Virus record (IMG/VR): IMGVR_UViG_3300045243_000079
Coordinates: 1 to 45,073 of that record
Length of the DNA: 45,073 nucleotides
Source of the DNA: a virus
Strand: one strand, 5' to 3'
The first letter of the stretch is position 1; each line of letters opens with the position of its first letter. A model generated the notes under the pieces. The model ran no database searches. It was given only the letters and a program-made list of their open reading frames with translations, and was not told where the DNA came from. Shown piece by piece: positions 8,004 through 44,410 of the stretch. Position numbers and translations under genes: made by a program.

Positions 8004-8025
8004 ATAGCTAAAATTTAGCCATTTT
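8004..8025 (-). promoter_or_regulatory. Conserved AT-rich palindromic element, copy 1 (before portal)
   Basis: Minus strand AAAATGGCTAAATTTTAGC followed by TATTTA. It lies between the terminase stop and the portal ribosome site. One of six copies in gene gaps of this window; proposed as a phage-specific promoter or operator. Confidence 0.6.
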
Positions 8026-8029
8026 CCCG

Positions 8030-9901
8030 CTACATCCCCCAAGGATTGTTAAGAAAGCTCTCGGAACCTGGGATTACTTCCTCCGGCAATCTAACTTGGC
8101 CTATTGCCAGCTCTTCTGGGGTCGCATCCCCGAAAATCTCAGGGCCTGCAAAAGTAAAGGAAAAGGAGTCTGTGGCCTTAGCTAATCCAGTTGCAATAGC
8201 TCTTACAATACCGCAAACAACGTCACAAACGTCCTTCGAGTACTGCGGTAAGTGGTCAACCCTCTTCCCATCAAATGTTAATTTTTCCATCTCAAATATT
8301 AGCTTTGAATACACATCACCCTGAATAACAAGCCTTGGAAATGATATCGCCCCGGCATGTAGAAGATTTCTAAACAGGACATAATCCTTATCATTAATGT
8401 TGTGCTTCTCAGAGTCGATTCCTTGCCTAACAGCTTTTTCCAAAAAGAACTGTGATTGGTACATATCGAAAGAAATATATTTACACCCAGTCATCTTAGT
8501 GAGGTGCTCAACAATCTCATCGACATTTGCGGTGCTGACGATGGCTGTTTTTGTCGGCTCCCACATTATCAACTGGTCGATTACAACCCTTGTGTTGAAG
8601 TTTTTAACAACCTGTTTTCCGTCCAGCTCATAGTAGGATATAGAATAGGCTTCGCACGGCTCTCCGTGACCGATACCAATAATTGTACTGTCCTTACTAA
8701 TTGACAAATCTCCGTGTATAGCAAAAGCTTTTGTTCTATCAACTCCTACCGCCGAACTAATAACTTTTTGGGCGAGATAGTTAACGGGCTTACCATTACT
8801 GTCGGTGAATGTCTGTATTTCTTGATTAACTTCGATTAACGGCTTAATGTTGTCATCAACAGCATCATAAATTCTTTGGGGCATGTAGAAAAAGGCGTTA
8901 ATGGTTAGAGGAGGTTCCGTGCAATAACGCATCTTAGAGTCGGATGGATTTGACAAAAAGTCTGATTTAAAAGTAAGTGGGACATCCCACTTTTCAAACT
9001 TAAATGTCTTCTCGCCAACATACCTTGGGTTATACTCCCAAGTACACCCTCGCTCAGCTACGAAAATACTTGTGTCTGGGTTCTTCTTAATATCTTCGAT
9101 AGCCTCTTCGTATTTACGGATAGTCCAATCCCCTTGCATACGGGGGAATGAAATAATAACCATGAGCCACGGAAGTTTACGGGATATAGCTGATGTTCTT
9201 AAGGTGTTGTAAATGAATTCAGCTTTGCCCATATCCACAACATCACCACTACCATCAGTGATGGTTTCCATTTCAGAATCGAAGGCTGACGTTTCGTCCA
9301 AAACCGCAGCTAAGACGTTATAACCTTCATAGTTTCCGGCTTCACTGTGCTCTGAGTTACAGCGGATATTATTGGCAGTTTCAACGGAAGCATCTGTAAT
9401 ACGGATTTCCATCCTGCTCCCAGTGCACTTCTTTAACAACTTTCCTCTACGAAGAACCCTAAAGTTCTCCATCAACCATTTCCAGTTAACAATACGGGCC
9501 GTGAATTTACTAAAGAAAACTTTACGGGCTTGTTTAGCTGTAGGAGAGATATTGATAATATCAATACCTTCTTCGATTGGAAAATCAAAATAGTCGTGGG
9601 CGCTTTTCATACAGAGGAGGAGATAGAAGAGGTAGGCGATTAGGATGGAGGTAGCATAGTCCTTACCACTCCCTTTACCCCACAAGAATACACCTATGTG
9701 CTTGATTCTCTCCATTGAGAAGACCTTTAGAGGGTCCTCTCCAATAAGCTTAAATATGGCTTCATACTGCCTGGGTGACAATGGTACGAGACCGAGCTGT
9801 TCTTTTGAGGTAACAAACTCTCTAAAGGGGACGGGTCTACACCAATAATCTTTTCTCCAGTCCTCTTCTTTAGTTAAAAATACCTTGTCAATCAGGTCCA
9901 T
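8030..9901 (-). CDS. terL: Terminase large subunit
   Basis: Motor ATPase and nuclease that packages DNA into the prohead. In 623 residues, the P-loop is GKGSGKD (75-81), and Walker B with the catalytic carboxylate is VLDE (200-203) after the strand NVLAA. The C-terminal half is the RNase H-like nuclease, beginning around HGDLSISKDSTIIGIG with the first Asp, and ending near KDVCDVVCGIVRAI with a late Asp. The length is normal for TerL. It begins two bases after the stop of the upstream gene, the probable small subunit, and is followed by the portal, the standard packaging order. Confidence 0.93.
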   Translation of the reverse strand: MDLIDKVFLTKEEDWRKDYWCRPVPFREFVTSKEQLGLVPLSPRQYEAIFKLIGEDPLKVFSMERIKHIGVFLWGKGSGKDYATSILIAYLFYLLLCMKSAHDYFDFPIEEGIDIINISPTAKQARKVFFSKFTARIVNWKWLMENFRVLRRGKLLKKCTGSRMEIRITDASVETANNIRCNSEHSEAGNYEGYNVLAAVLDETSAFDSEMETITDGSGDVVDMGKAEFIYNTLRTSAISRKLPWLMVIISFPRMQGDWTIRKYEEAIEDIKKNPDTSIFVAERGCTWEYNPRYVGEKTFKFEKWDVPLTFKSDFLSNPSDSKMRYCTEPPLTINAFFYMPQRIYDAVDDNIKPLIEVNQEIQTFTDSNGKPVNYLAQKVISSAVGVDRTKAFAIHGDLSISKDSTIIGIGHGEPCEAYSISYYELDGKQVVKNFNTRVVIDQLIMWEPTKTAIVSTANVDEIVEHLTKMTGCKYISFDMYQSQFFLEKAVRQGIDSEKHNINDKDYVLFRNLLHAGAISFPRLVIQGDVYSKLIFEMEKLTFDGKRVDHLPQYSKDVCDVVCGIVRAIATGLAKATDSFSFTFAGPEIFGDATPEELAIGQVRLPEEVIPGSESFLNNPWGM

Positions 9902-9902
9902 C

Positions 9903-10622: not shown

Positions 10623-10631
10623 TTACTTTCC

Positions 10632-11534: not shown

Positions 11535-11556
11535 TTTGAATCTCCTAGTTTTTATT

Positions 11557-11913
11557 TTACTTCTTTTTGTCTTCCAACCACCACTTAAGACCGTAAATCA
11601 ATCGTTTAATTGGCCCCGGTTCTTTGCACAACCTCAAATCCTTAAATCCACGAATTTCGAGTTCTCGTAAGGTATAATACGTATCGTCAACTTCAAAATG
11701 CTCTACAGCTTCCAGGGAAATTACGTGGCTTAGTTGTTTACCTACGTTAGCCGATTCGTCATAATACAAAGTCGTATGGTGAATCCCGTTACTTTGATTA
11801 TGCAGGGCTGTTGCTAAGTTTAAAATTTCCGCTTGTGTCAAACACAAGTCTCTGTGTTGCCCACTGCGATAATGTAGCCTTACCAACTTGTACTGAGCTG
11901 AACTTTCTGGCAT
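11557..11913 (-). CDS. Unknown protein, 118 residues, overlaps HTH gene
   Basis: Starts at MPESSAQYKLVRLHYRSG, with AAGGAG eight bases upstream; a GTG three codons earlier is worse placed. The first 116 bases overlap the end of the two-HTH gene in another frame, an unusually long overlap for this genome. The protein is an alpha/beta sequence ending in a basic KWWLEDKKK tail. No family recognised. Either both frames are used or the overlap is partly a by-product of an extended upstream reading frame. Confidence 0.65.
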   Translation of the reverse strand: MPESSAQYKLVRLHYRSGQHRDLCLTQAEILNLATALHNQSNGIHHTTLYYDESANVGKQLSHVISLEAVEHFEVDDTYYTLRELEIRGFKDLRLCKEPGPIKRLIYGLKWWLEDKKK

Positions 11914-12418
11914 CCGAACCACTCCTTTTTATCTCTTTTATGTTTAGATAAGTTAAATCTTCAAAGCTGTTTAAAAAAATTTTAAGTTCGGGTCTATCTT
12001 CCATCGCTTCTTCAAGAATTGCTCTGGCGTTTGATAACCATCTTTTTGCTGTAGATGGTTGAACGCCCATATGGTTTGCGATTCTTTGGAGAGACATCAG
12101 TTGAACGTAGTGAAGAATCAGACATTGCAATTGGTCGGGATATAATACCTTGGATGCAAATTTGATGAACTCTATGTAATTGTATTTGTAATGATACGTG
12201 TAGATTACCCGTATCTTACGAGTTAGAACTCTCCTGCGCCTTACGACTTCGCAGGGAGCAACATTCAGCAACATCGAAATTTCTTTTGTTCTTCGACCAT
12301 GAAGAACCAGATAAATAAAATCTGTGTCTTCATCAGTAAGGTACTTATGGCTAAGATTTAGGAGTTTTTCCGCAGAGATGTCGGAAAAGTCTTCGTTTTC
12401 AACAGAAATTAACTTCAT
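11798..12418 (-). CDS. Two-HTH transcription regulator, sigma region 4-like
   Basis: A 206-residue protein with two helix-turn-helix segments. The first is at residues 40-70 (HGRRTKEISMLLNVAPCEVV). The second is at residues 95-135 (SLQRIANHMGVQPSTAKRWL), with the DxLQxxILHY lead-in typical of sigma region 4 or LuxR-type modules. There is no region 2, so it is not a full sigma factor. Its ATG overlaps the stop of the NusG-like gene (TAATG). It is probably a DNA-binding regulator of middle or late genes, and a candidate for the AT-rich palindrome. The last 40 residues overlap the next gene. Confidence 0.75.
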   Translation of the reverse strand: MKLISVENEDFSDISAEKLLNLSHKYLTDEDTDFIYLVLHGRRTKEISMLLNVAPCEVVRRRRVLTRKIRVIYTYHYKYNYIEFIKFASKVLYPDQLQCLILHYVQLMSLQRIANHMGVQPSTAKRWLSNARAILEEAMEDRPELKIFLNSFEDLTYLNIKEIKRSGSDARKFSSVQVGKATLSQWATQRLVFDTSGNFKLSNSPA

Positions 12419-12945
12419 TAGTTCCTGCTTTTCTTCTCCAACGACACGATGTTAACTGACCGTATGATGGTGCTGTTAGGTAGCTGGACCTCGACTCCAA
12501 CCATCAATTTGTTCTTTCGGACAATAACTCCCTCGAAACCCTTAAGGATTCCGTCCGTAATTTTAACCTTATCCCCAACCGTAAATTCTTCTTTTGTTTT
12601 TTTAACGCCGGATTGAAATCTAACAACTTGGTTTTGTGGGACGGGGTATGGAACTTCCTTGGAACTTGGCATGACAAACTTACCAATCTTGTGGGATTCG
12701 ATATCCTTGATAACTCCTCTGACTTCCCTATCGTCTAACTGAATGAGGGCGTAGCCTTTCAAGAGGGAGTCTTCTAGTCCGGTGCTGTAGTCATCCCTTG
12801 AGTCGACATTGTCGGTCTCAAAGTCGTAAATGATGACATTTTTAATCTTTTTCAGCTTGGACTTGGGCGGACTTTTCTTGATTTCTTTGAGGAACTTATC
12901 TTTAGTCTTTATTTTGGAGGTAATGGCATACCAACAAAGAGGCAT
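12418..12945 (-). CDS. nusG: NusG/RfaH-family transcription elongation factor
   Basis: A 175-residue protein with the two NusG domains. The NGN domain (about residues 4-107) starts CWYAITSK and has the GLEDSLLKGYALIQL core with a later KFVMPS strand. The KOW domain (121-170) reads FTVGDKVKITDGILKGFEG and onward, with the invariant Gly of the KOW loop. NusG proteins bind the RNA polymerase clamp and suppress pausing or termination. A phage copy may favour phage transcripts or act as a specialised antiterminator like RfaH. A basic insert (residues 24-36) follows the first helix. It is coupled to the two-HTH gene downstream. Confidence 0.85.
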   Translation of the reverse strand: MPLCWYAITSKIKTKDKFLKEIKKSPPKSKLKKIKNVIIYDFETDNVDSRDDYSTGLEDSLLKGYALIQLDDREVRGVIKDIESHKIGKFVMPSSKEVPYPVPQNQVVRFQSGVKKTKEEFTVGDKVKITDGILKGFEGVIVRKNKLMVGVEVQLPNSTIIRSVNIVSLEKKSRN

Positions 12946-12953
12946 TAGCTTCC

Positions 12954-13202
12954 TTAGGACAATTTAATACCAAGCTGTTGCTCGGTTTTTAATACCCCAT
13001 TATTAATGTAGTTTGCCTTTGCATTTCCAAAATTTACATTGCCCTTCCACGCTGTTTCTTTTGCTGACTTTTCATTGTACTGTTCTCTTAACGAAAGACC
13101 ACACTTACATTCGATTGTAAAAATCTCAGGGTACTTCTTAACCACAATAAGTTTATGCCAATGCATAAACTTTGATTTTAATTTTCTAAAAAACTTTATC
13201 AT
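12954..13202 (-). CDS. Unknown small basic protein, 82 residues
   Basis: Begins MIKFFRKLKSKFMHWHKL at an ATG overlapping the stop of the upstream ATPase gene (TAATG), so it is translationally coupled. It holds CKCG and many Lys/Asn. The middle AKETAWKGNVNFGNAKANY is not a motif I know. Its position between the ATPase C-lobe and the NusG-like gene gives no clear job. Confidence 0.7.
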   Translation of the reverse strand: MIKFFRKLKSKFMHWHKLIVVKKYPEIFTIECKCGLSLREQYNEKSAKETAWKGNVNFGNAKANYINNGVLKTEQQLGIKLS

Positions 13203-14064: not shown

Positions 14065-14073
14065 CACGTCTCC

Positions 14074-16151: not shown

Positions 16152-16212
16152 AATAACCCTCCGTTAATCGATACACCTAAGGGTTAAAGTTTAAGCAATT
16201 TTCAGGCCATCT

Positions 16213-18690: not shown

Positions 18691-18701
18691 TGTACTTCTC
18701 C

Positions 18702-20457: not shown

Positions 20458-20477
20458 CCTGTTCTCCGTTTACTGCT

Positions 20478-29814: not shown

Positions 29815-30159
29815 CTACTTTGCGTCAAATGTTGCTACTTCACTCAGGGTTTTTTTCCAATCCCCAGTGTATCGGATAGCCCGATTATCAATATACAGCA
29901 CAGCCATTTCTTTTTTGTTTGTCACTTTTGAAAAAGGTATTCCATATTTTTTCATCCAAACTTCGATTGCTTTTTTACCTCCCTCACTTTGGGCTCGAAC
30001 AGAATAAACAACAATAGTGAAATAATCACTAAGCTTTTTGATGGCCTCAACAGCAAAAGGTTCAGGCCCAAATGGGATTATGTGTGGGGCAACAAACTTC
30101 CCCTCTTTACAAATAGTCCCATCAAAATCAATTAGAATTTTAAGTTTTTTTGGTGACAT
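29815..30159 (-). CDS. HAD-superfamily hydrolase
   Basis: 114 residues. The N-terminus has the HAD nucleophile motif ILIDFDGT (D11, D13), then VVYSVRAQ as motif II with Ser, a Lys-rich region and VLYIDNRAIRY near motif IV. It is short, without a large cap, like the small phosphatase or nucleotidase proteins of many phages. A phosphomonoester or nucleotide substrate is possible. Copy 2 of the AT-rich palindromic element lies just upstream. Confidence 0.85.
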   Translation of the reverse strand: MSPKKLKILIDFDGTICKEGKFVAPHIIPFGPEPFAVEAIKKLSDYFTIVVYSVRAQSEGGKKAIEVWMKKYGIPFSKVTNKKEMAVLYIDNRAIRYTGDWKKTLSEVATFDAK

Positions 30160-30172: not shown

Positions 30173-30195
30173 TATACCTAAAATTTAGTTTTTTT
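30173..30195 (-). promoter_or_regulatory. Conserved AT-rich palindromic element, copy 2 (before HAD gene)
   Basis: Minus strand AAAAAAACTAAATTTTAGG followed by TATAGG, ending about 14 bases before the HAD start. The short distance implies that transcription would begin very near the ribosome site if this is a promoter. Confidence 0.55.
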
Positions 30196-30197
30196 GT

Positions 30198-31133: not shown

Positions 31134-31154
31134 CAATTACCCCTTAAATTAAAA

Positions 31155-31274
31155 AACCTTTGACCGCCAAACAAAACTCTAGTGGAGGGCTCCAAGCGGG
31201 AGGGGTAATCTCGCCTGTTTAAGTAGGTCGGAGGCTACTTAAAGCACTAGAGTCTTGTTAAGCATCCAAAGGTT
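31155..31274 (-). ncRNA. Structured RNA element, four helices with possible pseudoknot
   Basis: Nested perfect or near-perfect helices: P1 31155-31162 with 31267-31274 (8 bp); P2 31171-31184 with 31245-31258 (14 bp, one G-U on the minus strand); P3 31218-31226 with 31235-31243 (9 bp, 8-base loop); P4 31196-31201 with 31209-31214 (six pairs on the plus strand; on the minus strand one becomes A-C). The P3 loop (GGAG on plus, 31230-31233) can pair with CTCC at 31190-31193. On the minus strand it is followed by T6 and then the ribosome site of the replisome-organiser gene. It could be a leader regulator, a terminator for the tRNA operon or an independent small RNA. Confidence 0.6.
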
Positions 31275-31306
31275 AAATTCTCGCCTCTTACCCCAAGGCT
31301 AAAATT

Positions 31307-31329
31307 GGTATACCCTAAAAATTTTTAGG
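31307..31329 (-). promoter_or_regulatory. Conserved AT-rich palindromic element, copy 3 (before structured RNA)
   Basis: Minus strand CCTAAAAATTTTTAGG, a perfect 16-bp palindrome, followed by GTATACC. It is a lengthened version of the CTAAATTTTAG core. It lies between tRNA-Gln and the structured RNA. The stretch 31275-31306 shows nothing else. Confidence 0.5.
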
Positions 31330-31342
31330 TGTCTAATAAAAA

Positions 31343-31416
31343 TGGTTCCCGGCGCTGGACTCGAACCAACATTCGGAGATTCAAAGTCTCCTGTCCTACC
31401 ATTAGACGAACCGGGA
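31343..31416 (-). tRNA. tRNA-Gln (UUG)
   Basis: Acceptor TCCCGGT/GCCGGGA, discriminator A, encoded CCA. Anticodon stem GGAGA/TCTCC, loop CTTTGAA (TTG), T-loop TTCGAGT. Canonical. Confidence 0.95.
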
Positions 31417-31575
31417 AAGCAAACAAATAAACCCGACCACTAAAAACAAAAACGAAATTTCAATTAAAAAGCAAACTGCCATTACCGGAATAGCTTGTCC
31501 GTTCATTGCACCTGCCGGAAATACTTTAAACCATTGTCTTATGTACAACTCAATCAGCCAATTTAACTTTCCCAT
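31402..31575 (-). CDS. Small membrane protein, 57 residues
   Basis: MGKLNWLIELYIRQWFKVFP, then a hydrophobic span PVMAVCFLIEISFLFLVVGF near residues 31-50, ending LLSRFV. GAGGG lies before the ATG. The last 15 bases overlap the 5' end of tRNA-Gln. The gene fills the gap between tRNA-Gln and tRNA-Cys. It could be a small holin-like or accessory peptide. The overlap with a tRNA and lack of homologue knowledge keep confidence moderate. Confidence 0.5.
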   Translation of the reverse strand: MGKLNWLIELYIRQWFKVFPAGAMNGQAIPVMAVCFLIEISFLFLVVGFICLLSRFV

Positions 31576-31597
31576 AAACCCTCGAAGAATATTAAAT

Positions 31598-31671
31598 TGG
31601 AGTCCCGAACAGGAATTGAACCTGTGTATCTGGTTTTGCAGACCAGAGCCTAACCACTCGACCACCGGGAC
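31598..31671 (-). tRNA. tRNA-Cys (GCA)
   Basis: Acceptor GTCCCGG/TCGGGAC, discriminator T (the usual U73 of tRNA-Cys), encoded CCA. Anticodon stem CTGGT/ACCAG, loop CTGCAAA (GCA), T-loop TTCAATT. Confidence 0.95.
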
Positions 31672-31676
31672 GCACT

Positions 31677-31752
31677 TGGTAGCCCTCGAAGGACTCGAAC
31701 CTTCATCTCCTCCTTCGTAGGGAGGCATCCTATCCAATTGGAAGAGAGGGCC
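31677..31752 (-). tRNA. tRNA-Arg (ACG)
   Basis: Acceptor GGCCCTC/GAGGGCT (G1-U72), discriminator A, encoded CCA. D-stem of three good pairs TCC/GGA, anticodon stem CCTCC/GGAGG, loop CTACGAA (ACG), T-arm GAAGG-TTCGAGT-CCTTC. Confidence 0.92.
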
Positions 31753-31761
31753 AAACAAAAA

Positions 31762-31847
31762 TGGCGGTAAGCGTTGGATTTGAACCAACATGGGTTTCAC
31801 CCCGCTTGTTTAGCAAACAAGTGCCTTAACCGTTCAGCCAGCTTACC
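31762..31847 (-). tRNA. tRNA-Ser (GCU)
   Basis: Class II tRNA. Acceptor GGTAAGC/GCTTACC, discriminator G, encoded CCA. Anticodon stem CTTGT/ACAAG, loop TTGCTAA (GCT), variable arm with a GGGT/ACCC stem, T-loop TTCAAAT. G73 and the long arm fit Ser. Confidence 0.95.
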
Positions 31848-31848
31848 T

Positions 31849-31931
31849 TGGTACGCCTAGCAGGAGTCGAACCTGCATTTACAGCTCCGGTTACGGCTAA
31901 AGAGGTAGAAGCTCTCCCCGGCTATAGGCGC
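31849..31931 (-). tRNA. tRNA-like gene, apparent anticodon UCU (Arg), D-arm missing
   Basis: Acceptor GCGCCTA/TAGGCGT, discriminator A, encoded CCA, and T-arm GCAGG-TTCGACT-CCTGC are canonical. The best anticodon arm is GAGAG-CTTCTAC-CTCTT (TCT). Only eight bases (TAGCCGGG) then remain for the D-arm, while the variable region is about 23 bases with a CCG/CGG stem. An alternative three-bp D-stem AGC/GCT leaves no anticodon stem. Identity is uncertain: it may be an unusual or decayed tRNA. Confidence 0.6.
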
Positions 31932-31933
31932 AT

Positions 31934-32326
31934 TTATTTCTTGTAAAAACCAAATCGACCTTTAATACAATCTGGAAGATTGGTCACATAAATAATACTA
32001 TTTTTCACAAAACCTTTTGTTGCTTTTTTACCGGGATGATTGAAATCACTTTCGGCTAACTTCTTGTCTGTAACTTCAATGATTCTCTTCTCAATCACCT
32101 GTAAATACTCTTCATCAGGTTCACCAATTATTATATCATCAATTACCAACAAGTCAAGCTCTTTGTGCATGTCTACCAAACAAACGAATTTTCTTATATC
32201 CTCGGACCAGAGCACGTCTTGTGGCTGGAGCTCACTTACTCTACCCCAGAAAGGGTAAATATCTGATTTTTCGTCAACTGTGATGACTCTTAAGTAAAGA
32301 ACCCAAGCCTCTTGCTTTAGATGCAT
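31934..32326 (-). CDS. Unknown protein, 130 residues
   Basis: Alpha/beta sequence beginning MHLKQEAWVLYLRVITVDEK, with acidic DIIIGEPDEEY in the middle and a basic end GRFGFYKK. AAGGAAG precedes the ATG, and the start overlaps the end of the sigma factor gene by 10 bases, so they are co-transcribed. No family recognised. A small partner of the sigma factor is conceivable only from position. Confidence 0.75.
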   Translation of the reverse strand: MHLKQEAWVLYLRVITVDEKSDIYPFWGRVSELQPQDVLWSEDIRKFVCLVDMHKELDLLVIDDIIIGEPDEEYLQVIEKRIIEVTDKKLAESDFNHPGKKATKGFVKNSIIYVTNLPDCIKGRFGFYKK

Positions 32327-33177
32327 AAATCTTCCTTAAAAATTTCTCTGGCCCCCTGTATTTCATTGCGGATTAAGAATACGCCCCTATCAAACAAGCT
32401 TCTGACGGTGGATGGTCGTTTGCCAAGAATTTTTCCAATTTCAACAAAATCTTTTGAGTTACCATCCAGCCCTATGTGAAGTTTTATCACTTCTTTTTGA
32501 AGGTCGGTGATTCCTTTGGTACGGTTCAGATATTTTTCTGTGTCCATTAAGCTTATTCTTTTTTCCAAATCCACATTTCTCATTTTCAACACATGATGTA
32601 AGTTAGTATCCTCAATAGATGTTGGGTAATGACTAAGCTCCGAATCTTTGTTTATATCCCCACCATGCCCAAACCCTCTGAACGAATGAATTTCTTTTTT
32701 TGAAATTTTTGCGTTTGGATTATCATTTAGCTTTTTTACAGCTCTGTAGAATGAGTATTGAAGGTTTACTGGAAGATGCACAAGGCGACCCTTTTCCATC
32801 AAGCCTCTTCCAATACGCTGATGAATCCAGTAAGTGGCATACGTGGATAGCCGGACTTGGTTTCTTACTTTGAACTTATCTACAGCTCGAATAAGACCTA
32901 CATTACCTTCTTGAATCATATCCTCAAAGTCAAACCCCATACCAGCAGCATGCCTATAGAGGTTGGCTATTTTAAGAACCAAGAATTGGTTATTTTCAAT
33001 TAGGAAGTTTCTGGCCTCAAGGTCCCCCTTAGAGGCTCTTATCAAGAGCTTGCGCTCAGATTCTCTATCTAAAATCGTTATAGGTTTAAAAGATGGGAGA
33101 TGCAAGTAAGGGTCTTTCTTTAACAGATTTAAACTATCATACTTCAATTGGTCCTCAATGTCAAGCCAAACCTTCAA
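32317..33177 (-). CDS. Sigma70-family RNA polymerase sigma factor
   Basis: A 286-residue factor that should redirect host RNA polymerase. Region 2 (about 55-125) is close to primary sigmas: ARNFLIENNQFLVLKIANLY, DFEDMIQEGNVGLIRAVDKF, then STYATYWIHQRIGRG. After a shortened region 3, region 4 (about 225-280) has the HTH FVEIGKILGKRPSTVRSLF. Region 1.1 is absent. It starts at TTG (33175-33177) with AGGA upstream and overlaps the helicase stop by 17 bases. It is the prime candidate for reading the repeated CTAAATTTTAG element. Confidence 0.92.
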   Translation of the reverse strand: MKVWLDIEDQLKYDSLNLLKKDPYLHLPSFKPITILDRESERKLLIRASKGDLEARNFLIENNQFLVLKIANLYRHAAGMGFDFEDMIQEGNVGLIRAVDKFKVRNQVRLSTYATYWIHQRIGRGLMEKGRLVHLPVNLQYSFYRAVKKLNDNPNAKISKKEIHSFRGFGHGGDINKDSELSHYPTSIEDTNLHHVLKMRNVDLEKRISLMDTEKYLNRTKGITDLQKEVIKLHIGLDGNSKDFVEIGKILGKRPSTVRSLFDRGVFLIRNEIQGAREIFKEDLCI

Positions 33178-34639: not shown

Positions 34640-34745
34640 AGAACTACTCTTTCCAGTACAATAAAACATAAATTATCAATGTCCAGGGTAAAAAGACTGG
34701 CATTATTAAAGTAATACTACAATTTTAGAGAAGTTTAAATCTATT

Positions 34746-35876
34746 TTAGGAGGTTTCTATTAGTAACGTTGATAAGTCTAAATTGGCTTGGGCGGGAACC
34801 TGAAAATCTGTTACCGTGTAAAACAGCGCCGGAGAAGACATTTCATAAACCCCACCTTGGATAAGGTTTAGACTGATATACCCAGTAGCATCGCTGATTG
34901 ACTCCACGTAGTCTTTTGTAGCCAACATTGAAGACCCTGGGCTGTAGGGATAATTTGAAACAAGCTTTGCCCTAAACATTATGTTTGAAATAGGGCTTCC
35001 AGCAGCATCGGTTAAGTAGCAGTAACAAGCACATAGGTTTGGAGATGGGGCCGTTGGTTGGAACGTAGTACAAGAGATATCAACTTCGGCATCGCCATTA
35101 ACTATTAGTGAGTATGGTTGTGTTGGGAAGGATATGAATGACTTGAAGAACAGGACGTTGAAAGTACCTGTAGGCAGACCAAAAACAACCTGTCCGTTTA
35201 TGTCTGTTATTCCGACAGCCAACGTGATTTGGTTGGTTGTATTTTTTATAGTTACTTTTATGTCTGGGATAGGCAGTGAGTTCTGGTCGGTGAACACAAA
35301 AGTAATTTGATTACTTCCGGCGATTGGTTGAATAATAGAAATGATTGTATCTAAATCAGTCTCTATGGCGTTCAAGCCGGAAAGAAGTGTAGACTCTTGG
35401 GCCATGTTGTTATCGATGTCTTCAACAAGACCTAAAATTGAAAGAGAGGTATTCTGAGAGGCAATATCTGACGAATCGATTTGAATGGCTGGATTGACCA
35501 ACAACTTTGCAGCCACGGCGCTGGCGATGGCTAAAGTGTTTACAGTTGCGGTGATGCTCGTGAAAACTATTTCTTCAATCGCTGCTCCTGGGTACAAGAC
35601 ATCCGAGTTTTCATAATAGGCGCAGTACGTCTGTGCCGTATTGTCGACAGATTGGTTAAAGTTTACGCTGTACAGCCCAGGTTGATTTACGGGGTCGTTT
35701 TCCGTTAAGGGGACAGATGTGAACGTAGAGCTGAAGGAAGTTCCAGTCCAATAAAAAAGGTCACTAGTTCTTTGGAGAATGACAACAGGAGTTTGTCCAG
35801 TAACCCCAACTGAGTTCGAGGTTATCAGCAATTTTAACGGGTAGATAGAGCCTATTGGAAGGGCCATAATAATCAC
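34746..35876 (-). CDS. Structural protein with Ig/transthyretin-like repeat domains
   Basis: 376 residues. The N-terminal 100 residues are beta-rich (LPIGSIYPLKLLITSNSVG). A helical middle (150-185) is followed by two beta-sandwich-like units with the carboxypeptidase-regulatory pattern: IPDIKVTIKNTTNQ..DINGQVVFGLPTG and SPISNIMFRAKL..DATGYISLNLIQGG. Such domains decorate phage tails and baseplates. The start is a GTG with AAGGAG four bases before it; an ATG three codons on is an alternative. Copy 4 of the AT-rich element lies just upstream. Confidence 0.8.
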   Translation of the reverse strand: MIIMALPIGSIYPLKLLITSNSVGVTGQTPVVILQRTSDLFYWTGTSFSSTFTSVPLTENDPVNQPGLYSVNFNQSVDNTAQTYCAYYENSDVLYPGAAIEEIVFTSITATVNTLAIASAVAAKLLVNPAIQIDSSDIASQNTSLSILGLVEDIDNNMAQESTLLSGLNAIETDLDTIISIIQPIAGSNQITFVFTDQNSLPIPDIKVTIKNTTNQITLAVGITDINGQVVFGLPTGTFNVLFFKSFISFPTQPYSLIVNGDAEVDISCTTFQPTAPSPNLCACYCYLTDAAGSPISNIMFRAKLVSNYPYSPGSSMLATKDYVESISDATGYISLNLIQGGVYEMSSPALFYTVTDFQVPAQANLDLSTLLIETS

Positions 35877-35888
35877 ACTTCTCCTTAC

Positions 35889-35912
35889 AATAGGCTAAAA
35901 TTTAACGTTTTT
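35889..35912 (-). promoter_or_regulatory. Conserved AT-rich palindromic element, copy 4
   Basis: Minus strand AAAAACGTTAAATTTTAGCC followed by TATTG and AAGGAG. It overlaps the stop of the upstream gene and ends just before the ribosome site of the structural gene. Confidence 0.6.
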
Positions 35913-36195
35913 ACTTCTTGGGTTGTTGAAACAATCTAGATACTGCGGAGTGTTTCAAAATGTCGGTATAGACCAAAACATCTGTATCGGTACAGTTCAA
36001 ATAGTCCCAAATAATACTCGAAACTTCCTCAGTTTTTACCGAGGCACCTACAATCACGCATTTATCATACTTATTAATGATGGATAAAAAGTTGGTGTTT
36101 ACTCCAACTAAGTTTAGAAACTTTACCTTGTCTTCGTCCGAAAGTGTATTAAAACCTTTAACAACATCTTCCGGTACGGTAGTAGAAATTTCCAT
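35911..36195 (-). CDS. Unknown protein, 94 residues, behind a strong promoter
   Basis: Begins MEISTTVPEDVVKGFNTLSD, then an alpha/beta region FLSIINKYDKCVIVGASVKT and TDVLVYTDILKH. It is preceded by a near-consensus sigma70 promoter (36228-36256) and GGAG, so it is probably expressed early although it sits among late structural genes. This makes a host-takeover role plausible. No family recognised. Confidence 0.78.
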   Translation of the reverse strand: MEISTTVPEDVVKGFNTLSDEDKVKFLNLVGVNTNFLSIINKYDKCVIVGASVKTEEVSSIIWDYLNCTDTDVLVYTDILKHSAVSRLFQQPKK

Positions 36196-36227
36196 AAAAT
36201 CTCCTTAACGTAGATTATTTTAACAGT

Positions 36228-36256
36228 ATTATACTTCTTTTAAAGTCGGTTATCAA
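36228..36256 (-). promoter_or_regulatory. Strong sigma70-type promoter
   Basis: TTGATA, exactly 17 bases, TATAAT on the minus strand: 5/6 and 6/6 matches. It lies between two genes, 33 bases before the 94-residue protein. This is the best host-type promoter in the window. Confidence 0.8.
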
Positions 36257-36260
36257 GCGA

Positions 36261-37850
36261 TTAGAAAGAAAGGATAACTGGTATAGGTAAGTTAGCTTTA
36301 AAGGTATCCCAAGAGGTAAACCAATTAGTCGTATTAGAATCTGTCCCCCCCTGATTAAGGACTTGAAATCCTCCCGAAGAATCAATATCGGTGGCTAAAA
36401 CACTACCAACCTCCGGCAATTTTCCGGTTAGGGAGGCAATTATTTTTGTCTGGGTCCCCCCACTAGATGACAGTAGTGAGAATGTTTGGGCCGTCGATCC
36501 TGTTATTGCTGTAGAGCATCTAAATTTATTAGTAACCGTTAACGTGTTACTTGCGGTAAAGGTTATTGTCCCCCCAGTTTTACCCGTAAGCGTTAAGTTA
36601 GCTATTGATAAAGGTGTTGGCAATTGGACTACCACGGCAGCAGCCTGACAGTCCACAGAAAATATTTCCGTTCCGTCCCCAACAACAGTTCCCGTAGTAT
36701 ATGTAAGTGTAGCTGCTGCTCCGCCCAGAGCTGGCCGACCTGATAGGGTTAAGGTACCAGCTGTATTAATTGTTTGAGACGACATGGCCAGAAATCCACC
36801 GCTACCCTGCCAGGTACCTGTACTGTTAAATACAAGAGAGGCCGTTCCGGTTAAGTTTGTTGCTAAGTTTAGCCCGCCCGTATTTATGGTGAACGCACCG
36901 TTTATAATAGCAGCGGTTGTGGCTGTAGTTATTGTTCCAGATATAGCCCAAGCACTTGACAAAACAAGAGTTGTTGGGCCTCCACCGCTCGAAAGCGTCA
37001 GATTTCCGAAATTAACAGCAAACGCTCCGCTGAAAGTAGTGGTCCCGTTGATGTTGTCCGTCCAGGTGCCAGTTCCGTTTAGGGCACTTAGAAGGGTGAC
37101 TGTTGCGGTTCCTGTTCCATGAGAAATATTGAACCAGTTAAAGGCTCCCGTGTTGAAGGTTATGTTCCCACGAATATTGAGAGTCTGACCGTTGGCATTA
37201 AATGTACCACCAGAATTAGTTACAGCAGAGTTGGCACTACCTGCAAATGTACAGCCTGTAGTCATCGTCACTGTCCCATTTAAAACCAAAGGATAGGCGT
37301 TGGCCGAAGAATTCATGGCCCAGTTTCCCGTTCCCGCCATAGTCATGTTTTGGGTCGAAATACAGGCCCCAGCTCCCGTAAGATTTCCGTTGGAGGTGAT
37401 TCCGTTTCCTGTAACAGTCACGGTTCCAGTTGGAAACCCTAAATTCCCAACGGTGGCAGTTCCCCCGGCAATTGCTATACTTCCCGTTGTTTGAAGGTTG
37501 AGGGTGCTTATGACTTTAGTGCTAGGAGTAAACGTACCTCCGCTTCCCATAACCCAAGTTGCCGAAGAAGTTAAAGTCATCCCCGAAACAAACGTTACGT
37601 TTCCAGTTGTCGTCAGCTGATTGGAGTGTGTAAGAGTTCCTGTATAACCAGTGCAGTCCACCACAGCGCAGGCCGAGGTCACGTTCACCGTGAGGTCACT
37701 GGTCGAAGTGGCACCGAGCGTTGCCGTGTCGGTAGCAACTGGAAAAGTCCCAGTATTTATAGCACTTATTGGGCTAACCGTAGACCACGAAGCATTAGCG
37801 TTCCAGTTGAGTGTTCCACCGGTATTTCTTAAGAAATAAGTTGTGGCCAT
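36261..37850 (-). CDS. Thr/Gly/Ala-rich beta-structured virion protein
   Basis: 529 residues with very few charged residues and continuous short beta repeats (SGMTLTSSATWVMGSGGTFT, LNIRGNITFN, NFGNLTLSSGGGPTTLVL). This is the composition of beta-helix or fibre shafts. It begins MATTYFLRNTGGTLNWNANA, a start seen in phage structural proteins. It probably belongs to the tail-tip or fibre assembly with the two neighbours. AAGGAA lies eleven bases upstream of the ATG. No enzymatic motif is visible. Confidence 0.8.
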   Translation of the reverse strand: MATTYFLRNTGGTLNWNANASWSTVSPISAINTGTFPVATDTATLGATSTSDLTVNVTSACAVVDCTGYTGTLTHSNQLTTTGNVTFVSGMTLTSSATWVMGSGGTFTPSTKVISTLNLQTTGSIAIAGGTATVGNLGFPTGTVTVTGNGITSNGNLTGAGACISTQNMTMAGTGNWAMNSSANAYPLVLNGTVTMTTGCTFAGSANSAVTNSGGTFNANGQTLNIRGNITFNTGAFNWFNISHGTGTATVTLLSALNGTGTWTDNINGTTTFSGAFAVNFGNLTLSSGGGPTTLVLSSAWAISGTITTATTAAIINGAFTINTGGLNLATNLTGTASLVFNSTGTWQGSGGFLAMSSQTINTAGTLTLSGRPALGGAAATLTYTTGTVVGDGTEIFSVDCQAAAVVVQLPTPLSIANLTLTGKTGGTITFTASNTLTVTNKFRCSTAITGSTAQTFSLLSSSGGTQTKIIASLTGKLPEVGSVLATDIDSSGGFQVLNQGGTDSNTTNWFTSWDTFKANLPIPVILSF

Positions 37851-37863
37851 TTATTTTTATTCC

Positions 37864-39693
37864 TTAAACGTACAGAACATTGAACCAGCAGTCCGCCGAT
37901 CCAATTGTTTTTGTTGGCCCCGTGGAGCTATTACAAACAACAATACCTGTTGAAAAGAACCTACCATACTTTGTGAAGGAATACGAAAAGCTTGTTTGGG
38001 CCGGTACAAAAAATATAACGATAGGAACAGCGGTATCCGCTGGGAGCGACGTAGCGTTATGAAGCTGAATGAACTGGCCCGACGTTTTTGAATTGTATCC
38101 CGTTAGTGACAAAAATACCCCAGCCGAGGCTTTAACAACGTGGTTTGTTTCATAGGCCGTCGAATCCGCTGAACTTGGTGTATAAGTGTTGGTTGAGTCT
38201 GGTTGGTCCTTGACAGGTTGTGCCACCCCACTACCGTCAACCCTCAATAGACCGCCGGTGGTTAAGCTCAGTGGGGATGACTGGGCCGTTGTATATGAAG
38301 GAGCGGATGTTGTTACAGCACCTAAAGTTAATCCACCTTTTTGACCAGAAGTTGTTGAACCCTGGGAAACCTGAAGTCCTGTTACAGAGGCGTCCAGCGC
38401 AATACCATTAGTGGTCCCAATGTTAGAGGTAACCGTACCAGAAACAATCCAAGGAGAAGTGCTTTGAGTAACGGCTACGGTTGCTGGGAAGTTGGAGACG
38501 GTTACCGACCCACTGTCCACAATTGTGTGGACAACATCTGAACCAAGAGAGACTTTATTGGTTGTACCTGGGGTAGTCTGGTCTATCCCAACCTTACCCA
38601 AAAGATTTGTTCCAGCTGGAAGGGCATTTGTAATGGCCGTAACAGCCGTTAAAGTTCCAGAATCTACAACGGTATGTAGATTTGTCCCGGTGGGTTGAAC
38701 AACGGTCACATTTCCTGTCACAACGGTTGTAGACCCGCCGTCTACAATGACGTGACCAATAACATTTGTTCCAGCTGGAAGTGCGTTGGTTATGGAGGTC
38801 ACAGAGGAAACAGCCACGGTTCCACTTATTGGTTGAACAGTACTGGAGCCATCAACGATTAATTTTCCAGCAGCTGTTATTTGAAGAGCGGCTTGCTGGC
38901 CATTAGCAAGAGTTGGTAAGCTAGTATTGAATATACCACCAGATAGGGTCGATTTGGTGGCCGCTGTTCCAGCAGCTACTGATCCTTCAGTTTGGTTATA
39001 CACATGCAAAGCGTGGTCAGAGCTTTCTATGTAATCTGCATTACCACTCCCAGTATCAAAAGAATATAATAGGTCGGTTGTTAAAATACCAAGCTGACCC
39101 GCAGGTATGGAACTACCATCATTCTGCCACAACGCCGCAGGGTTTCCAAAAGTATCGGTTATTTGAGTTTTTTGTGCCCCGCTGGTTTGTGTGGCAGCTA
39201 AGGCCAGTGCGGAAGTATTCAAGTTTGTCCCCGCATTGGCAGTGACAGAACCAGAAACAACCCAAGGGGATGTACTTTGTGTTACCGCCTGGATTGCGGG
39301 AAAGTTTGAAACGGCTATAGAACCGCTGTCCACTATCGTATGAATAACATCTGAGCCTAAGGAAACCTTATTAGTTGTTCCCGGCGTAGTTTGGTCTATC
39401 CCTACTTTTCCCAGTAGGTTTGTACCCGCAGGGAGGGCATTTGCGATGGCGGTAACCGACGAAACTGTGGTTATGACCCCAGAATCCACCACTGTGTGTA
39501 AATTTATTCCGGCAGGCTGCACTACTGTGACGTTCCCAGATAAGGTGATGGAGCCGGAGATAGGCATCGGGGATTGGTCACTAGCAATAACAACTGGGAT
39601 TGAAGATGCCGATACTTTTTGACCAACGGTAGGTAGCGTAGACCCAAACCAAGAGGCGAGGTCTAATTTTGTATTAATATCTATTGAAGGCAT
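37864..39693 (-). CDS. Tail or fibre structural protein with internal duplication
   Basis: 609 residues. The start leads into [20 protein letters not shown] and [10 protein letters not shown], a sequence style recurrent in phage virion proteins. Two copies of a unit of about 100 residues are present (near residues 53-155 and 325-430), sharing [20 protein letters not shown] and the [15 protein letters not shown] stretch. The last 100 residues form a separate beta domain ([20 protein letters not shown]). AAGGA precedes the ATG. It is co-oriented with the fibre genes on both sides. Confidence 0.82.
38410..39535 (-). repeat. Intragenic duplication of a ~300-bp unit
   Basis: Copy A (about 39225-39535) and copy B (about 38410-38712) encode nearly identical protein segments, but many third codon positions differ (for example in the [12 protein letters not shown] stretch). 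The duplication is therefore old and maintained at protein level. Confidence 0.7.
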
Positions 39694-39703
39694 TTGTTCA
39701 TCC

Positions 39704-40369
39704 TTATGGGGTTTGTAGCCCGATATGAAAGTCTACGTAAGCGTTTTTTATAGGGTCTTTTATGTCTTTGGTCCCACCTTCAAAACCAACAGCTGTTCCA
39801 AAGATAAAATTGTGGTCCGCACCTGCGCCAATTCTAGGTAAGCTTCCGGTAAAGAGTTCTGAGGGTAGGCTAATATAAGCTATTCCATTAGTCTTACTGC
39901 CCTTTACTTCGTCCTTTGTTTCGTGTGTAATTATTGTTACAGCCTTAGTCACAGTAACCGACTGAGACACTTCATTAAAAGTAGTGGTGCTACCAATATT
40001 GGTTAATTTTTTGTCTTTTAAGAAAATCTTAACGTAGGTTGCATTCCCGTGGGTGTCACTTACCAAGGCTCCATTAAACATAAAAGGTTTTTTTATATAC
40101 GATGTTTTTGATTCTGAATCAATTTTATATTGATTAAACTTAGACTCCAATGATTTGTAACTAGAGGTGGCGGTTGTTAAGGCAGTTTCCTTAACGTCAA
40201 GAACCGTCTTAGTTTCGGAGTACCTAGTAAAATAAGCATAAGCGGTAATAGCCAAGGCTAAAGCAATTGCACAAACCGCATAGAACTTAATGTCAGTCTT
40301 AGGCTTTGGCACTTCTTGAGTAGAGGGAGCTGGAACTGGTTGAGGAGGGGCTTCTGAATTTTCAGGCAT
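39704..40369 (-). CDS. Single-pass membrane protein, 221 residues
   Basis: A Pro-rich N-terminal tail ([16 protein letters not shown]) is followed by one membrane helix (residues about 28-46, [19 protein letters not shown]), a coiled-coil stretch and a beta-rich C-terminal domain ending [10 protein letters not shown]. The charge pattern predicts the N-terminus inside and the C-terminus outside. It lies next to the DUF5675 and coiled-coil membrane genes, so a role in lysis or virion attachment to the membrane is possible. AT-rich element copy 5 lies upstream. Confidence 0.78.
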
Positions 40370-40403
40370 TATTATTCCTTGTGGAATGGTTAAGTAGCTA
40401 TAA

Positions 40404-40426
40404 TATAGCTAAAATTTGGCTTTTTT
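40404..40426 (-). promoter_or_regulatory. Conserved AT-rich palindromic element, copy 5
   Basis: Minus strand AAAAAAGCCAAATTTTAGC followed by TATATTA. It lies between the HNH gene and the membrane protein gene, about 35 bases before the start codon. Confidence 0.6.
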
Positions 40427-40448
40427 ATTTAAGCGTAAGGCCAAAATA

Positions 40449-40985
40449 TCAAACATTTGGCTCATTTTCCTGTAGATAAGCTATAGCCAATTTCAAAAAA
40501 TCAACGCTATCCCCCAATTGCCCTATACCCGTATTACACGAAAAACAAAGTAATCCACGAATAAATCCAGTTTTGTGACTGTGGTCGGGGACAAGACCTT
40601 TTTCTTCTTTAGAGGACTTACAAATAGAGCATCGCCCTCCCTGCTTTAAAAACAACTCTTTAAAATCGTTCCGGTTAAATATATCACCAACTTTATTTTT
40701 AATTCCTTTTTGTTTCCATCCAGTTTCTCTGTATAGAAGTGGATTTTCTTTTCGTTTTTTATTTCTGTTGAAGTTGTAAATAGGGCCATTTTTTCTTTTT
40801 AATTCTCTGTCCTTTTGCCTAAGTAAATCTATATTTTTTAATCTATATTCTTTTCTAACTTCTTTGTTGCACGTTTTACACCAAATCTGCAACCCGTCCT
40901 TTTTTCTTTTGGACACATGAAAATTAGAGAGGGGCTGAGGATTTATTTGAGAACAATCTTTTTTACTGCAGTTTTTGTTTTCCAT
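40449..40985 (-). CDS. Endonuclease VII-type HNH homing endonuclease with N-terminal zinc module
   Basis: 178 residues. The N-terminal zinc module is CSKKDC, then DGLQIWCKTC. The basic linker ends before the endonuclease VII core: CSICKSSKEEKGLVPDHSH, then IRGLLCFSCNTGIGQL. It lies between the DUF5675 and membrane protein genes, splitting what looks like a lysis group, as homing endonucleases often do. AT content is higher than in its neighbours. Its zinc module resembles the orphan domain at 17222-17521. Confidence 0.88.
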   Translation of the reverse strand: MENKNCSKKDCSQINPQPLSNFHVSKRKKDGLQIWCKTCNKEVRKEYRLKNIDLLRQKDRELKRKNGPIYNFNRNKKRKENPLLYRETGWKQKGIKNKVGDIFNRNDFKELFLKQGGRCSICKSSKEEKGLVPDHSHKTGFIRGLLCFSCNTGIGQLGDSVDFLKLAIAYLQENEPNV

Positions 40986-41516
40986 TTAAACTATTGGGGA
41001 ATCGTCAACGCTTCCTGGGAATTGTTCCGTAATCTTGACTATAATATCTTCTTTATTGGCCCAGTCCATAAATTCTTTTATGGCTTCTTTAGACCCACTG
41101 ATTCCTTCTTGCAATACACCTTTTTTATTCTTAATAAGTCCTTTTTCTTTTCCGAGCAAAATACAGCCCTCAACGTCCGACTGCCAACCTTTAGAGACAT
41201 CTCCGGCAAAGTTCCCAGTATGTATTTGAAGAGCGACAGCGCCTGGGACGTTTTCTAATTGGTAGACATAAACTTTATTGACTGGGGTACTTCTTTTAGG
41301 AGATAGCGTATACTTACCTGGGAATTCACCTTGAGGTGAACACGACACATCTGTATCCCGAACCCCGTTTTGGTCCAAGTCTATCCATTTTAGCTCAAGA
41401 CCAACCCACGTATGTGAACATGCTGTACCGTCATAGGCAAAAGCCGTTGAACGAACACCTTGCTCACCGTTATCTCCTAGCTTTTCTTTTCGGACAATTA
41501 AAAGCTCCTTACTCAT
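40986..41516 (-). CDS. DUF5675-family protein, possible lysis-related
   Basis: 176 residues. The pattern GEFPGKYTLSPKRS, VYVYQLENVPGAVALQIHTG, then GCILLGKEKG matches DUF5675, a family common near phage lysis genes. The conserved His (QIHTGNF) and Cys (EGCILLG) recall small peptidoglycan-acting enzymes, although its activity is not established. I start at MSKELLIVRKEKLG with AGGA six bases upstream. It overlaps the coiled-coil membrane gene by 8 bases. Confidence 0.75.
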   Translation of the reverse strand: MSKELLIVRKEKLGDNGEQGVRSTAFAYDGTACSHTWVGLELKWIDLDQNGVRDTDVSCSPQGEFPGKYTLSPKRSTPVNKVYVYQLENVPGAVALQIHTGNFAGDVSKGWQSDVEGCILLGKEKGLIKNKKGVLQEGISGSKEAIKEFMDWANKEDIIVKITEQFPGSVDDSPIV

Positions 41517-42051: not shown

Positions 42052-42072
42052 TTAGAATCTCTTTCCATTTTA

Positions 42073-44364
42073 TTACTGCTCGATAAATGCGACACCGTCT
42101 CCACCAGCTGCAGAAAAGTAATTGAATGGTCCTGTAGCAGCTCCACCACCTCCACCCCCATGTAACCCTGCAACAGCTGGAGGAGAACCTCCGTTAAGAC
42201 CGCCAGCTCCGGCTCCTCCAGCTCCGGTAAAATAAGGTTCGTAAGACGAAGATATAGAACCACCATTCCCGCCATCGGAGTTCGATGCCGTGCTTGTTAA
42301 GTTTGTTCCGTTAGAACCTACAACATATTTTATAAGGCCTAGAACGGCAAAACTTAATTTTTCTGGTGAAGCCAATGAAGGTAAATCATACCCAGATGAG
42401 TTTGCAACACCCCCAGTTAAATGTTGACCACCACCCCCGCCAAATGCTCTTATCAAGGTGCTTCCATTAAGAGAGAATGTTGTGTCCCCACCACTATTTC
42501 CAGCACCAGATGTTGTAGTACCTCCGGCCCCCACAGTAACTGTATAAATAGTGTCTGGTAGAACGCTGATCGCAAATCTAACTATTCCTCCAGAAGCTCC
42601 ACCACCTCCACCGTGATTAAAAGCATCTCCGCTAGGTTGATTTCCACCAGCTCCTCCAGCTCCTACGAGAGTGGTTATAATCCAAGTAGTGTCTCTTCCA
42701 GTTCTGAAGTTTTGAGCACCAGTAGTATTAAAATAGTGGATGTTGTGAGAAAAAGTTGGCGTAAAGAATCTTACATCATCAAACCAAACCGATTGCGTAG
42801 AGCCTGGGTTTGTTGCTTGAGGATTTACTTTAACATATCTTGCATCAACAGGTATTTGAATAGCCATAACTCCACTAGGTGGGTTTAGGAAAGACCCCCC
42901 AACGAATGGCTTCATAATCCCATAGTAAGTGCTGGCTGAAGTTGGGTACGAACCAGTCTTAATCCAAACCGCTTGGTTAGCCCCCAAAACTGTCGGAGTA
43001 ACGCCATCAGCTTGATAGAAGTTTAAAACAAAGAATCCATTCATTGAAGCGGAAGTACACCATGTTTTAAATTGAATATAATATGTACTGAGAGCACTTA
43101 TTGGTATTAAAGAAGAATTAACCCCCGCTGTACCGCTGTTTAGAATATCAAATCTAACGGCGTTCCCACCATCAACAGCAGTTACGCTGTTCTCCCTATT
43201 GATAGTAGCACTTGTAAGTGTTGGTTCGGCTGTCCAGTTTGTTGGAAGTCCACCAGACCACTCTTCAAACGACCCATTTATAACGTCTGTTTTAACATCA
43301 AAAAATACAGGTGTGGCGTTCCCAAGAATTTGGTATGATGACCCAGTATAGGTAATCTCGTATAAATTATTGACAAGAATCTCCCCCCCATTAAATGCAG
43401 TATTGGTAGAATCATTTAGTGGGATTGAAGGTTGACCATTTACCGAGACATTAATAGCGCCAACATTTGTAAAATTAGGCTTGAACGCTATAACTGTGCC
43501 TGGAATGATTGAGGAGTTTATTGGATAATTTGGAATTGTTAGGCTATACGTAGGAGTAGAGCCGGAAGAATTACTTCCCCAAAATTTAGGGGCATTACCT
43601 AACTGAAGAAGATTTAAAATATTGTTACCAGAAAGAGAATCGAACCAATTTGTGGCTCCAATAATCTGACTAATTTTGTATCGAATCGAGGCCAAAGAAT
43701 CAGCCAGAGTCTGACTTTGGTCGGCGGTGTCAGGTGAACCAGTAGGCCAATCTTGATTTTCCCAAATTGAAGGCATCACATAAGTGGCTGGACTGCAGAA
43801 CCCTCCAGTAGTGACAGTAAAGGTAGCTAATCGGACGGTTCCAGTCGCAGGTTGCCCACCATTGAATGATGGATAATCTGGGATGTAAGTAACAACATAA
43901 TTTGAAATTTTTCTTGTGAATAGTGGAACGTTTGGTGTGATGATTCCAAGGTTGTCAATAACATCTCTTGGGCTTTGAAACCCAATGCTTCCACCATCAT
44001 TACCCAACTGTTCATTGTATGTAATATCGATAGCGTCCGAGCGTGTGCTTAGTGGTGGAGCGCTAATTCCAATATTGTCCCCTCCAGCAAAAATAGCACC
44101 GGAATAATTGTTAGGGTCCGTAATACTTTTTGGGTCTGGCAGAACGAAGAAGGCTATACCGTTAGCAATATTCACGGTAGGTGAGGGAGTGCTGTTATTA
44201 GTATAAGTAATACCAAGACCAGAAACCCTGCAGCTTGTTTCTGTGATTGAACTAGTCACAAAGCTTTTGTGAACCTGAGCGATAAACTCAGATATGAAAT
44301 TAGCGTCTTGTGACGAAAGATTTTCATCTGGGTTGAAATAAACTTTTTGGTCTGGAAATGCCAT
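42073..44364 (-). CDS. Tail fibre/adhesin with carbohydrate-binding-like domain and glycine-rich tip
   Basis: 763 residues. The N-terminal 200 residues (KVYFNPDENLSSQDANFISE) are virion-attachment-like. A jelly-roll unit near residues 356-530 (VINGSFEEWSGGLPTNWTAE, ending SVWFDDVRFF) resembles carbohydrate-binding modules. The last 200 residues are rich in GGGGG-type runs (GAGGAGGNQ, HGGGGGASGG, GGGGGQH), as in adhesin tips with polyglycine sandwiches that set host range. AGAGGA precedes the ATG. AT-rich element copy 6 lies upstream. It is probably the receptor-binding protein. Confidence 0.85.
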   Translation of the reverse strand: MAFPDQKVYFNPDENLSSQDANFISEFIAQVHKSFVTSSITETSCRVSGLGITYTNNSTPSPTVNIANGIAFFVLPDPKSITDPNNYSGAIFAGGDNIGISAPPLSTRSDAIDITYNEQLGNDGGSIGFQSPRDVIDNLGIITPNVPLFTRKISNYVVTYIPDYPSFNGGQPATGTVRLATFTVTTGGFCSPATYVMPSIWENQDWPTGSPDTADQSQTLADSLASIRYKISQIIGATNWFDSLSGNNILNLLQLGNAPKFWGSNSSGSTPTYSLTIPNYPINSSIIPGTVIAFKPNFTNVGAINVSVNGQPSIPLNDSTNTAFNGGEILVNNLYEITYTGSSYQILGNATPVFFDVKTDVINGSFEEWSGGLPTNWTAEPTLTSATINRENSVTAVDGGNAVRFDILNSGTAGVNSSLIPISALSTYYIQFKTWCTSASMNGFFVLNFYQADGVTPTVLGANQAVWIKTGSYPTSASTYYGIMKPFVGGSFLNPPSGVMAIQIPVDARYVKVNPQATNPGSTQSVWFDDVRFFTPTFSHNIHYFNTTGAQNFRTGRDTTWIITTLVGAGGAGGNQPSGDAFNHGGGGGASGGIVRFAISVLPDTIYTVTVGAGGTTTSGAGNSGGDTTFSLNGSTLIRAFGGGGGQHLTGGVANSSGYDLPSLASPEKLSFAVLGLIKYVVGSNGTNLTSTASNSDGGNGGSISSSYEPYFTGAGGAGAGGLNGGSPPAVAGLHGGGGGGAATGPFNYFSAAGGDGVAFIEQ

Positions 44365-44386
44365 TAGGGTCCTCTGTGTAGTCTAA

Positions 44387-44410
44387 TATAGGCTAAAATT
44401 TAGCGGTTTT
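44387..44410 (-). promoter_or_regulatory. Conserved AT-rich palindromic element, copy 6 (before fibre gene)
   Basis: Minus strand AAAACCGCTAAATTTTAGCC followed by TATATTAGA. It lies between the stop of the truncated upstream gene and the adhesin gene, 23 bases before the start codon. Confidence 0.62.

Follow-up and report, generated by a model that had tools for sequence, protein, structure and literature searches.

The window, i.e., the whole stretch of 45,073 bases analysed here, is a linear virus record and a fragment of a large phage, in which almost all genes lie on the minus strand (Table 1). Together with genes for virion proteins, it carries a replication block comprising DNA polymerase, primase, helicase, RecA-like and nuclease genes. 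The level of identity between its portal protein and that of SPO1 places the phage within the wider SPO1/Herelleviridae-like group. Two tRNA clusters are present on the minus strand (504-2814 and 31343-31931), in which ARAGORN recognises 8 genes and to which Rfam adds two more, namely at 504-576 and 31852-31931. Past the tRNA-Gln gene, a 206-nt stretch of the same strand (31137-31342) is predicted to form long hairpins (-67.6 kcal/mol, z of -3.6 against shuffles); it has no match in Rfam and is possibly an unannotated structured RNA.

Table 1. The repeated element, the genes around it and its counterparts in two further phages (G001 and G028).
Feature	Position	Strand or direction	Remarks
Element copy 1	8004..8025, AAATTTT core 8016-8010	-	Gap separating the portal gene from that of the terminase large subunit
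Element copy 2	30173..30195, core 30186-30180	-	Before ORF 29815-30159
Element copy 4	35889..35912, core 35903-35897	-	Before ORF 34746-35876
Element copy 5	40404..40426, core 40417-40411	-	Before ORF 39704-40369
Element copy 6	44387..44410, core 44401-44395	-	Before tail-fibre-like ORF 42073-44364
Portal protein	6008..7975	-	Downstream of copy 1; identity to the SPO1 portal of about 39-41%
Terminase large subunit	8030..9901	-	Upstream of copy 1
206-aa protein	11798..12418	-	Sigma region-4-like helix-turn-helix (Sigma70_r4_2); G028 ortholog preceded by element
NusG/KOW-like putative antiterminator	12418..12945	-	Adjoins gene of 206-aa helix-turn-helix protein
Sigma-70-family protein, 286 aa	32317..33177	-	Pfam Sigma70_r2, C-terminal region-4-type helix-turn-helix; proposed reader
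ORF 34746-35876	34746..35876	-	Ig-like/carboxypeptidase-regulatory-like domains; after copy 4
Host-type sigma-70 promoter TTGATA-17-TATAAT	36228..36256	-	Upstream of ORF string leading to sigma gene
ORF 39704-40369	39704..40369	-	Membrane segment near N terminus, judged by eye; after copy 5
Tail-fibre-like protein	42073..44364	-	Downstream of copy 6
G028 AAATTTTGGG site	Terminase/portal gap	Gene direction	Ortholog of copy 1
G028 AAATTTTGGGG site	24131	Gene direction	Ortholog of copy 2, before ortholog of ORF 29815-30159
G028 AAATTTTGGG site	Before ortholog of 206-aa protein	Gene direction	In gap
Short-leader sites	Window 30186, 35903; G001 12885, 59167, 69479		Shine-Dalgarno 10-12 bases after AAATTTT

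Between these genes recurs an element of roughly 20 bases, the consensus of which is NAAAANNN[GC][TC]TAAATTTTAG[CG]N(0-1)TAT and of which five copies in the window are alike. When both strands are scanned, its central part AAATTTTAG is encountered on the minus strand only, with five occurrences that all fall in gene gaps, the gaps amounting to 3.7 kb or ~8% of the window. The original prediction would have been refuted by copies being as frequent within genes or on the opposite strand, and none are found there; the placement it gave, i.e., minus strand and gene gaps, is borne out for these five copies. The commonest 10-mers of the gaps are indeed AAATTTTAGC and TAAATTTTAG. Scanning the window and its relatives with a matrix, as had been proposed, ranks the same five copies first in the window when the matrix is built exclusively on those of G001, a second phage (see below); the fifth-ranked copy reaches 22.3, and the best of 60 dinucleotide shuffles 21.2. 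With this matrix, an intragenic match at 12355 obtains 21.7, hardly more than the best shuffle, and is probably due to chance; this near-match (AAAAACTCCTAAATCTTAGCCATAAG, 12345-12365, minus strand) lies within the gene of the 206-aa helix-turn-helix protein, the G028 ortholog of which has a true copy just upstream. Six copies had originally been claimed and the ones starting at 8004, 30173, 35889, 40404 and 44387 stand, but the matrix score rules out as members both the one at 31307-31329 (CCTAAAAATTTTTAGG, score of -5.1) and a supposed seventh, degenerate copy at 34711-34728 (-8.0), both scored with the final matrix. The former sequence is a different short palindrome located at the 5' end of the strongly folding RNA stretch mentioned above.

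A second phage, G001 (contig of 72,981 bases), was found via the element alone and harbours six copies, one at 12887 and the others on the plus strand (46618, 47496, 54282, 59165 and 69477). Five of them lead or precede late blocks, the plus-strand copies being followed by genes that include the head maturation protease, the major-head-protein block, a tail-fibre-like gene, a block opening shortly ahead of the tail sheath, and a gene for a baseplate wedge protein. Small and metabolic genes form a long block on the minus strand, in which a single copy (12887) is found, outside the late block. Judging from gene content, this layout is that expected of a late promoter. In the window, the class of the gene following copy 2 (ORF 29815-30159) is unclear, which counts against a late-promoter reading. 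Besides one 23-residue match, the only window proteins retrieved in G001 by tblastn are the sigma factor and endonuclease VII, a number that is no measure of overall kinship, the genes contained in one fragment being for the most part not those contained in the other. The sigma-70-family protein is thus the sole shared regulator found, with 28-30% identity between the two phages and membership of the same PHROG (phrog_351). Elsewhere in G001, the region 34740-41077 (L013/L014) encodes two RNA ligase-like proteins, a polynucleotide kinase and a nicotinamide phosphoribosyl transferase, a block reminiscent, by analogy, of tRNA repair and NAD salvage against host defences.

Among the phage loci gathered, the element is specific to these phages. 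With a matrix built on the 11 sites of the window and G001, every site scores 25-31, and across a further 2.51 Mb of phage sequence no match reaches 20. This set includes many SPO1-like portal relatives as well as 80 additional viral loci with sigma genes (partial contigs, 1.23 Mb); as these 80 loci lack the element, the pairing of sigma and element is narrow. It is likewise absent from relatives by the major head protein (42-44%) and by the portal (31-43%), and direct reading of the SPO1 portal leader reveals no AAATTTTAG. In IMG/VR, the exact element is retrieved in 28 stretches, two of them in G001 and the others with one match per contig, mostly inside ORFs or without late context, and these single matches were put down to chance. 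In GTDB genomes, at least 116 exact matches were obtained and, being scattered across unrelated phyla among the matches listed, were taken as chance rather than as a host signal; the possibility of a promoter for a host alternative sigma factor was dismissed as well, the matches listed showing no concentration in any bacterial lineage. Among the papers listed by a literature search, none had TAAATTTTAG as a phage promoter.

Regarding its architecture, the element looks like a promoter made of one piece. No column exceeds 0.5 bit from -40 to -14 relative to AAATTTT, hence nothing is conserved upstream of the A-run and the absence of a host -35 box noted in the original prediction holds. The flanks are asymmetric, with an A-tract before the core and C(C)TAT after it, and the orientation to the downstream gene is fixed. 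The core AAATTTTAG[CG] is found in 11/11 sites of the window and G001, but conservation is lowest in the TAT part, which can also read TTT, TAA or GTT and lies at a distance from the core that differs by one base between sites. At five of the 14 sites known across the three phages, a Shine-Dalgarno sequence starts only 10-12 bases past AAATTTT (Table 1), e.g., the AAGGAG of copy 4, which begins 10 nt past the core; for the G001 site at 59167, the script picked a start codon further downstream, and the GAGG-ATG pair closer to the core was recognised by eye. For the mRNA to keep its ribosome-binding site, transcription would have to start ~5-8 bases past AAATTTT and, as a -10 box ends ~6 bases before the start, AAATTTTAG would itself be the -10 region, in line with what had been proposed earlier from the short leaders of the window. 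C(C)TAT would then correspond to the start region, at a spacing to the core varying by one base. These same leaders make it unlikely that the -10 box is instead the downstream TAT(ATTA), as in the late promoters of Staphylococcus Kayvirus and Listeria P100-like phages, with the A-tract and palindrome acting as an unusual extended -10. TATATTA is present in 3/11 sites, i.e., window copies 5 and 6 and G001 54282, which read AGC(C)TATATTA and resemble TGCTATATTA of CKA15 (PMC12282133) and TGTTATATTA of 515A1 (PMC7698491), and both the window phage and G001 are related to SPO1/Herelleviridae by portal and major head protein; a start 6 bp past such a -10 box would nonetheless remove the Shine-Dalgarno sequence at five sites, and the TAT part is precisely the one that is poorly conserved and shifts relative to the core.

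A third phage, G028 (contig of 29,984 bases), is syntenic with the window from 6008 to about 36 kb, with TerL and portal proteins 56-57% identical, and displays the element in a changed form. AAATTTTAG is absent and replaced by AAATTTTGGG, the three copies of which each lie in a gap and point in gene direction. AAATTTT is retained at 3/3 sites and only one half, the right one, is altered (TYAAATTTTGGG), so that the dyad symmetry is lost. In the window and G001, the near-palindrome GCTAAATTTTAGC already pointed out in the original prediction is real and near-perfectly symmetric in several copies, but it is not kept in G028. A palindromic operator for a dimeric late-gene regulator, which this symmetry could suggest and which had been offered as an alternative, is accordingly weakened: core and place are maintained with the palindrome gone, a poor fit to a dimer operator and an easy fit to a directional promoter. 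Considering, in addition, the fixed orientation, the asymmetric flanks and the lack, at the copies, of any visible host-type promoter apart from the element, the operator is highly improbable. Similarly, the palindrome could fold as a small RNA hairpin and the element be a signal in the 5' leader, either a hairpin or a processing site, but the stem core would be made of AT pairs only and is broken in G028, and for most copies the sequence immediately upstream shows no further promoter, leaving this explanation barely credible.

As for the reader of the promoter, the candidate is the sigma-70-family protein of the window (ORF 32317-33177), where region 2 is recognised by PF04542 at 45.7 bits for a cut-off of 24 and where a phmmer alignment to RpoS covers residues 24-261. 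Pfam gives no region-4 match in this ORF, but in a structural model based on 37 sequences the helices of residues 204-284 are mostly of high confidence and the top PDB matches are full-length sigma-70 holoenzyme subunits; a first model, based on two sequences, was discarded (pLDDT of 44). The sigma gene lies downstream of both the host-type promoter (36256-36228) and the element copy at 35889, on the same strand. The 206-aa protein is a possible co-factor. In G028, the window-type sigma is absent from the syntenic slot, and a 194-aa short sigma-like protein is encoded beside the primase gene (L342, 1153-1737, minus strand), with weak similarity to sigma regions 2 and 4 and without counterpart in the window or G001. 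It is quite improbable, even more so than a downstream -10 box, that the element is the promoter of a phage-encoded RNA polymerase located outside the sequenced fragments. The length and tight conservation of the element are more reminiscent of polymerase-specific phage promoters than of typical sigma promoters, and the fragments fall short of whole genomes; against this, no multisubunit RNA polymerase was found in the three fragments, where positive controls worked, the larger ORFs scanned revealed no RNA polymerase, and the two phages that share one form of the element each encode a sigma factor. A single-subunit RNA polymerase was not found in the three fragments either, in a search the positive control of which gave no signal.

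Altogether, the element is best explained, with a probability of about 0.7, as a phage-specific and mainly late promoter class read by the host RNA polymerase carrying a phage sigma factor. The promoter interpretation of the original prediction is thus supported by (i) the short leaders, (ii) the fixed orientation to the downstream gene, (iii) the lack of a -35 box, (iv) the late-gene location in G001, and (v) the sigma gene in both phages sharing the same element; from these we infer the transcription starts, the timing and the role of this sigma as the reader. The promoter would be of a one-piece -10 type without -35, with AAATTTTAG(C) at about -14 to -5, the A-tract and a G/C-Y step just upstream of the core, and C(C)TAT at the start region. 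The phage sigma would replace the targeting subunit of the host polymerase, and the enzyme so equipped would melt the AT-rich core and start ~5-8 bases past AAATTTT, with transcription covering the portal, tail-fibre and other late genes. The sigma gene itself may be switched on first by the host enzyme and then become self-sustaining via the copy at 35889.

The proposed link between sigma and element is drawn from two genomes with sigma factors 28-30% identical, and all three contigs are fragments, which tempers this reading. In these three partial genomes, the form of the element tracks the sigma found in each fragment, which may be viewed as a lead. On the one hand, the window and the distant G001 share the sigma and an identical element; on the other hand, in the syntenic sister G028 the sigma-like gene is a different one and TAGC has become TGGG in every copy. 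Promoter form might then follow sigma rather than ancestry, a sigma and its whole late-promoter set being swapped together naturally, a suggestion that we put forward tentatively and regard as rather doubtful. In any case, AAATTTTAGC versus AAATTTTGGG in syntenic phages constitutes a small natural experiment on the co-change of sigma and promoter. More generally, a group of uncultured SPO1-related phages would gain a defined late-promoter sequence with a named candidate sigma, and late genes could be called from sequence by means of this element.

Compared with known systems, the element resembles in kind the late promoters of phage T4, the box of which is of the TATAAATA type; no such box is found at the sites of the window and G001, where the core is invariably the one described above. 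The T4 box is a single 8-bp TATA box located about one helical turn before the start, without -35 and with an AT-rich downstream stretch (PMC2988020). The likeness to this system (gp55/gp33/gp45) is in the one-piece -10-type element at about a helical turn from the start, the AT-rich sequence following it, the lack of -35, the phage sigma and the late structural genes, whereas the difference resides in the element, i.e., AAATTTTAG(C) with an upstream A-tract instead of an 8-bp TATA box, and in the sigma, which has a region-4-type C-terminal helix-turn-helix where T4 uses the short sigma gp55. Among published late promoters, the nearest are found in related phages of the Herelleviridae, i.e., Staphylococcus Kayvirus 515A1 (TGTTATATTA; PMC7698491) and Listeria phage CKA15 (TDTGCTATATTA; PMC12282133), and also lack a -35. 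With these the element has in common the late genes, the absence of -35, a proposed phage sigma and SPO1-related structural proteins, as well as a location before virion genes, namely portal and tail fibre in the window, and the head protease, major-head-protein, sheath and baseplate blocks in G001. The core is a different one, however, and by leader lengths the window-type -10 lies upstream of the TATATTA-like part; the Kayvirus/P100-like arrangement (TGTTATATTA/TGCTATATTA, start 6 bp downstream) is excluded by the leaders at 5/14 sites, and TATATTA is on these grounds disfavoured as the -10 box in these phages. Considering the AGC(C)TATATTA sites, a common origin with the Herelleviridae late promoters is possible. 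Finally, in phages 7-11 and phiEco32 the phage sigma gene is described as being read from host-type and phage-type promoters (PMC4331800). The present phages resemble them by a short phage-specific element without -35 and by a sigma gene expected under both promoter types, but phiEco32 and 7-11 differ by their promoters (TAATGTATA / TGTGATGTTATA) and by a sigma only distantly related to sigma-A. The kind of promoter is known and the sequence class is new.
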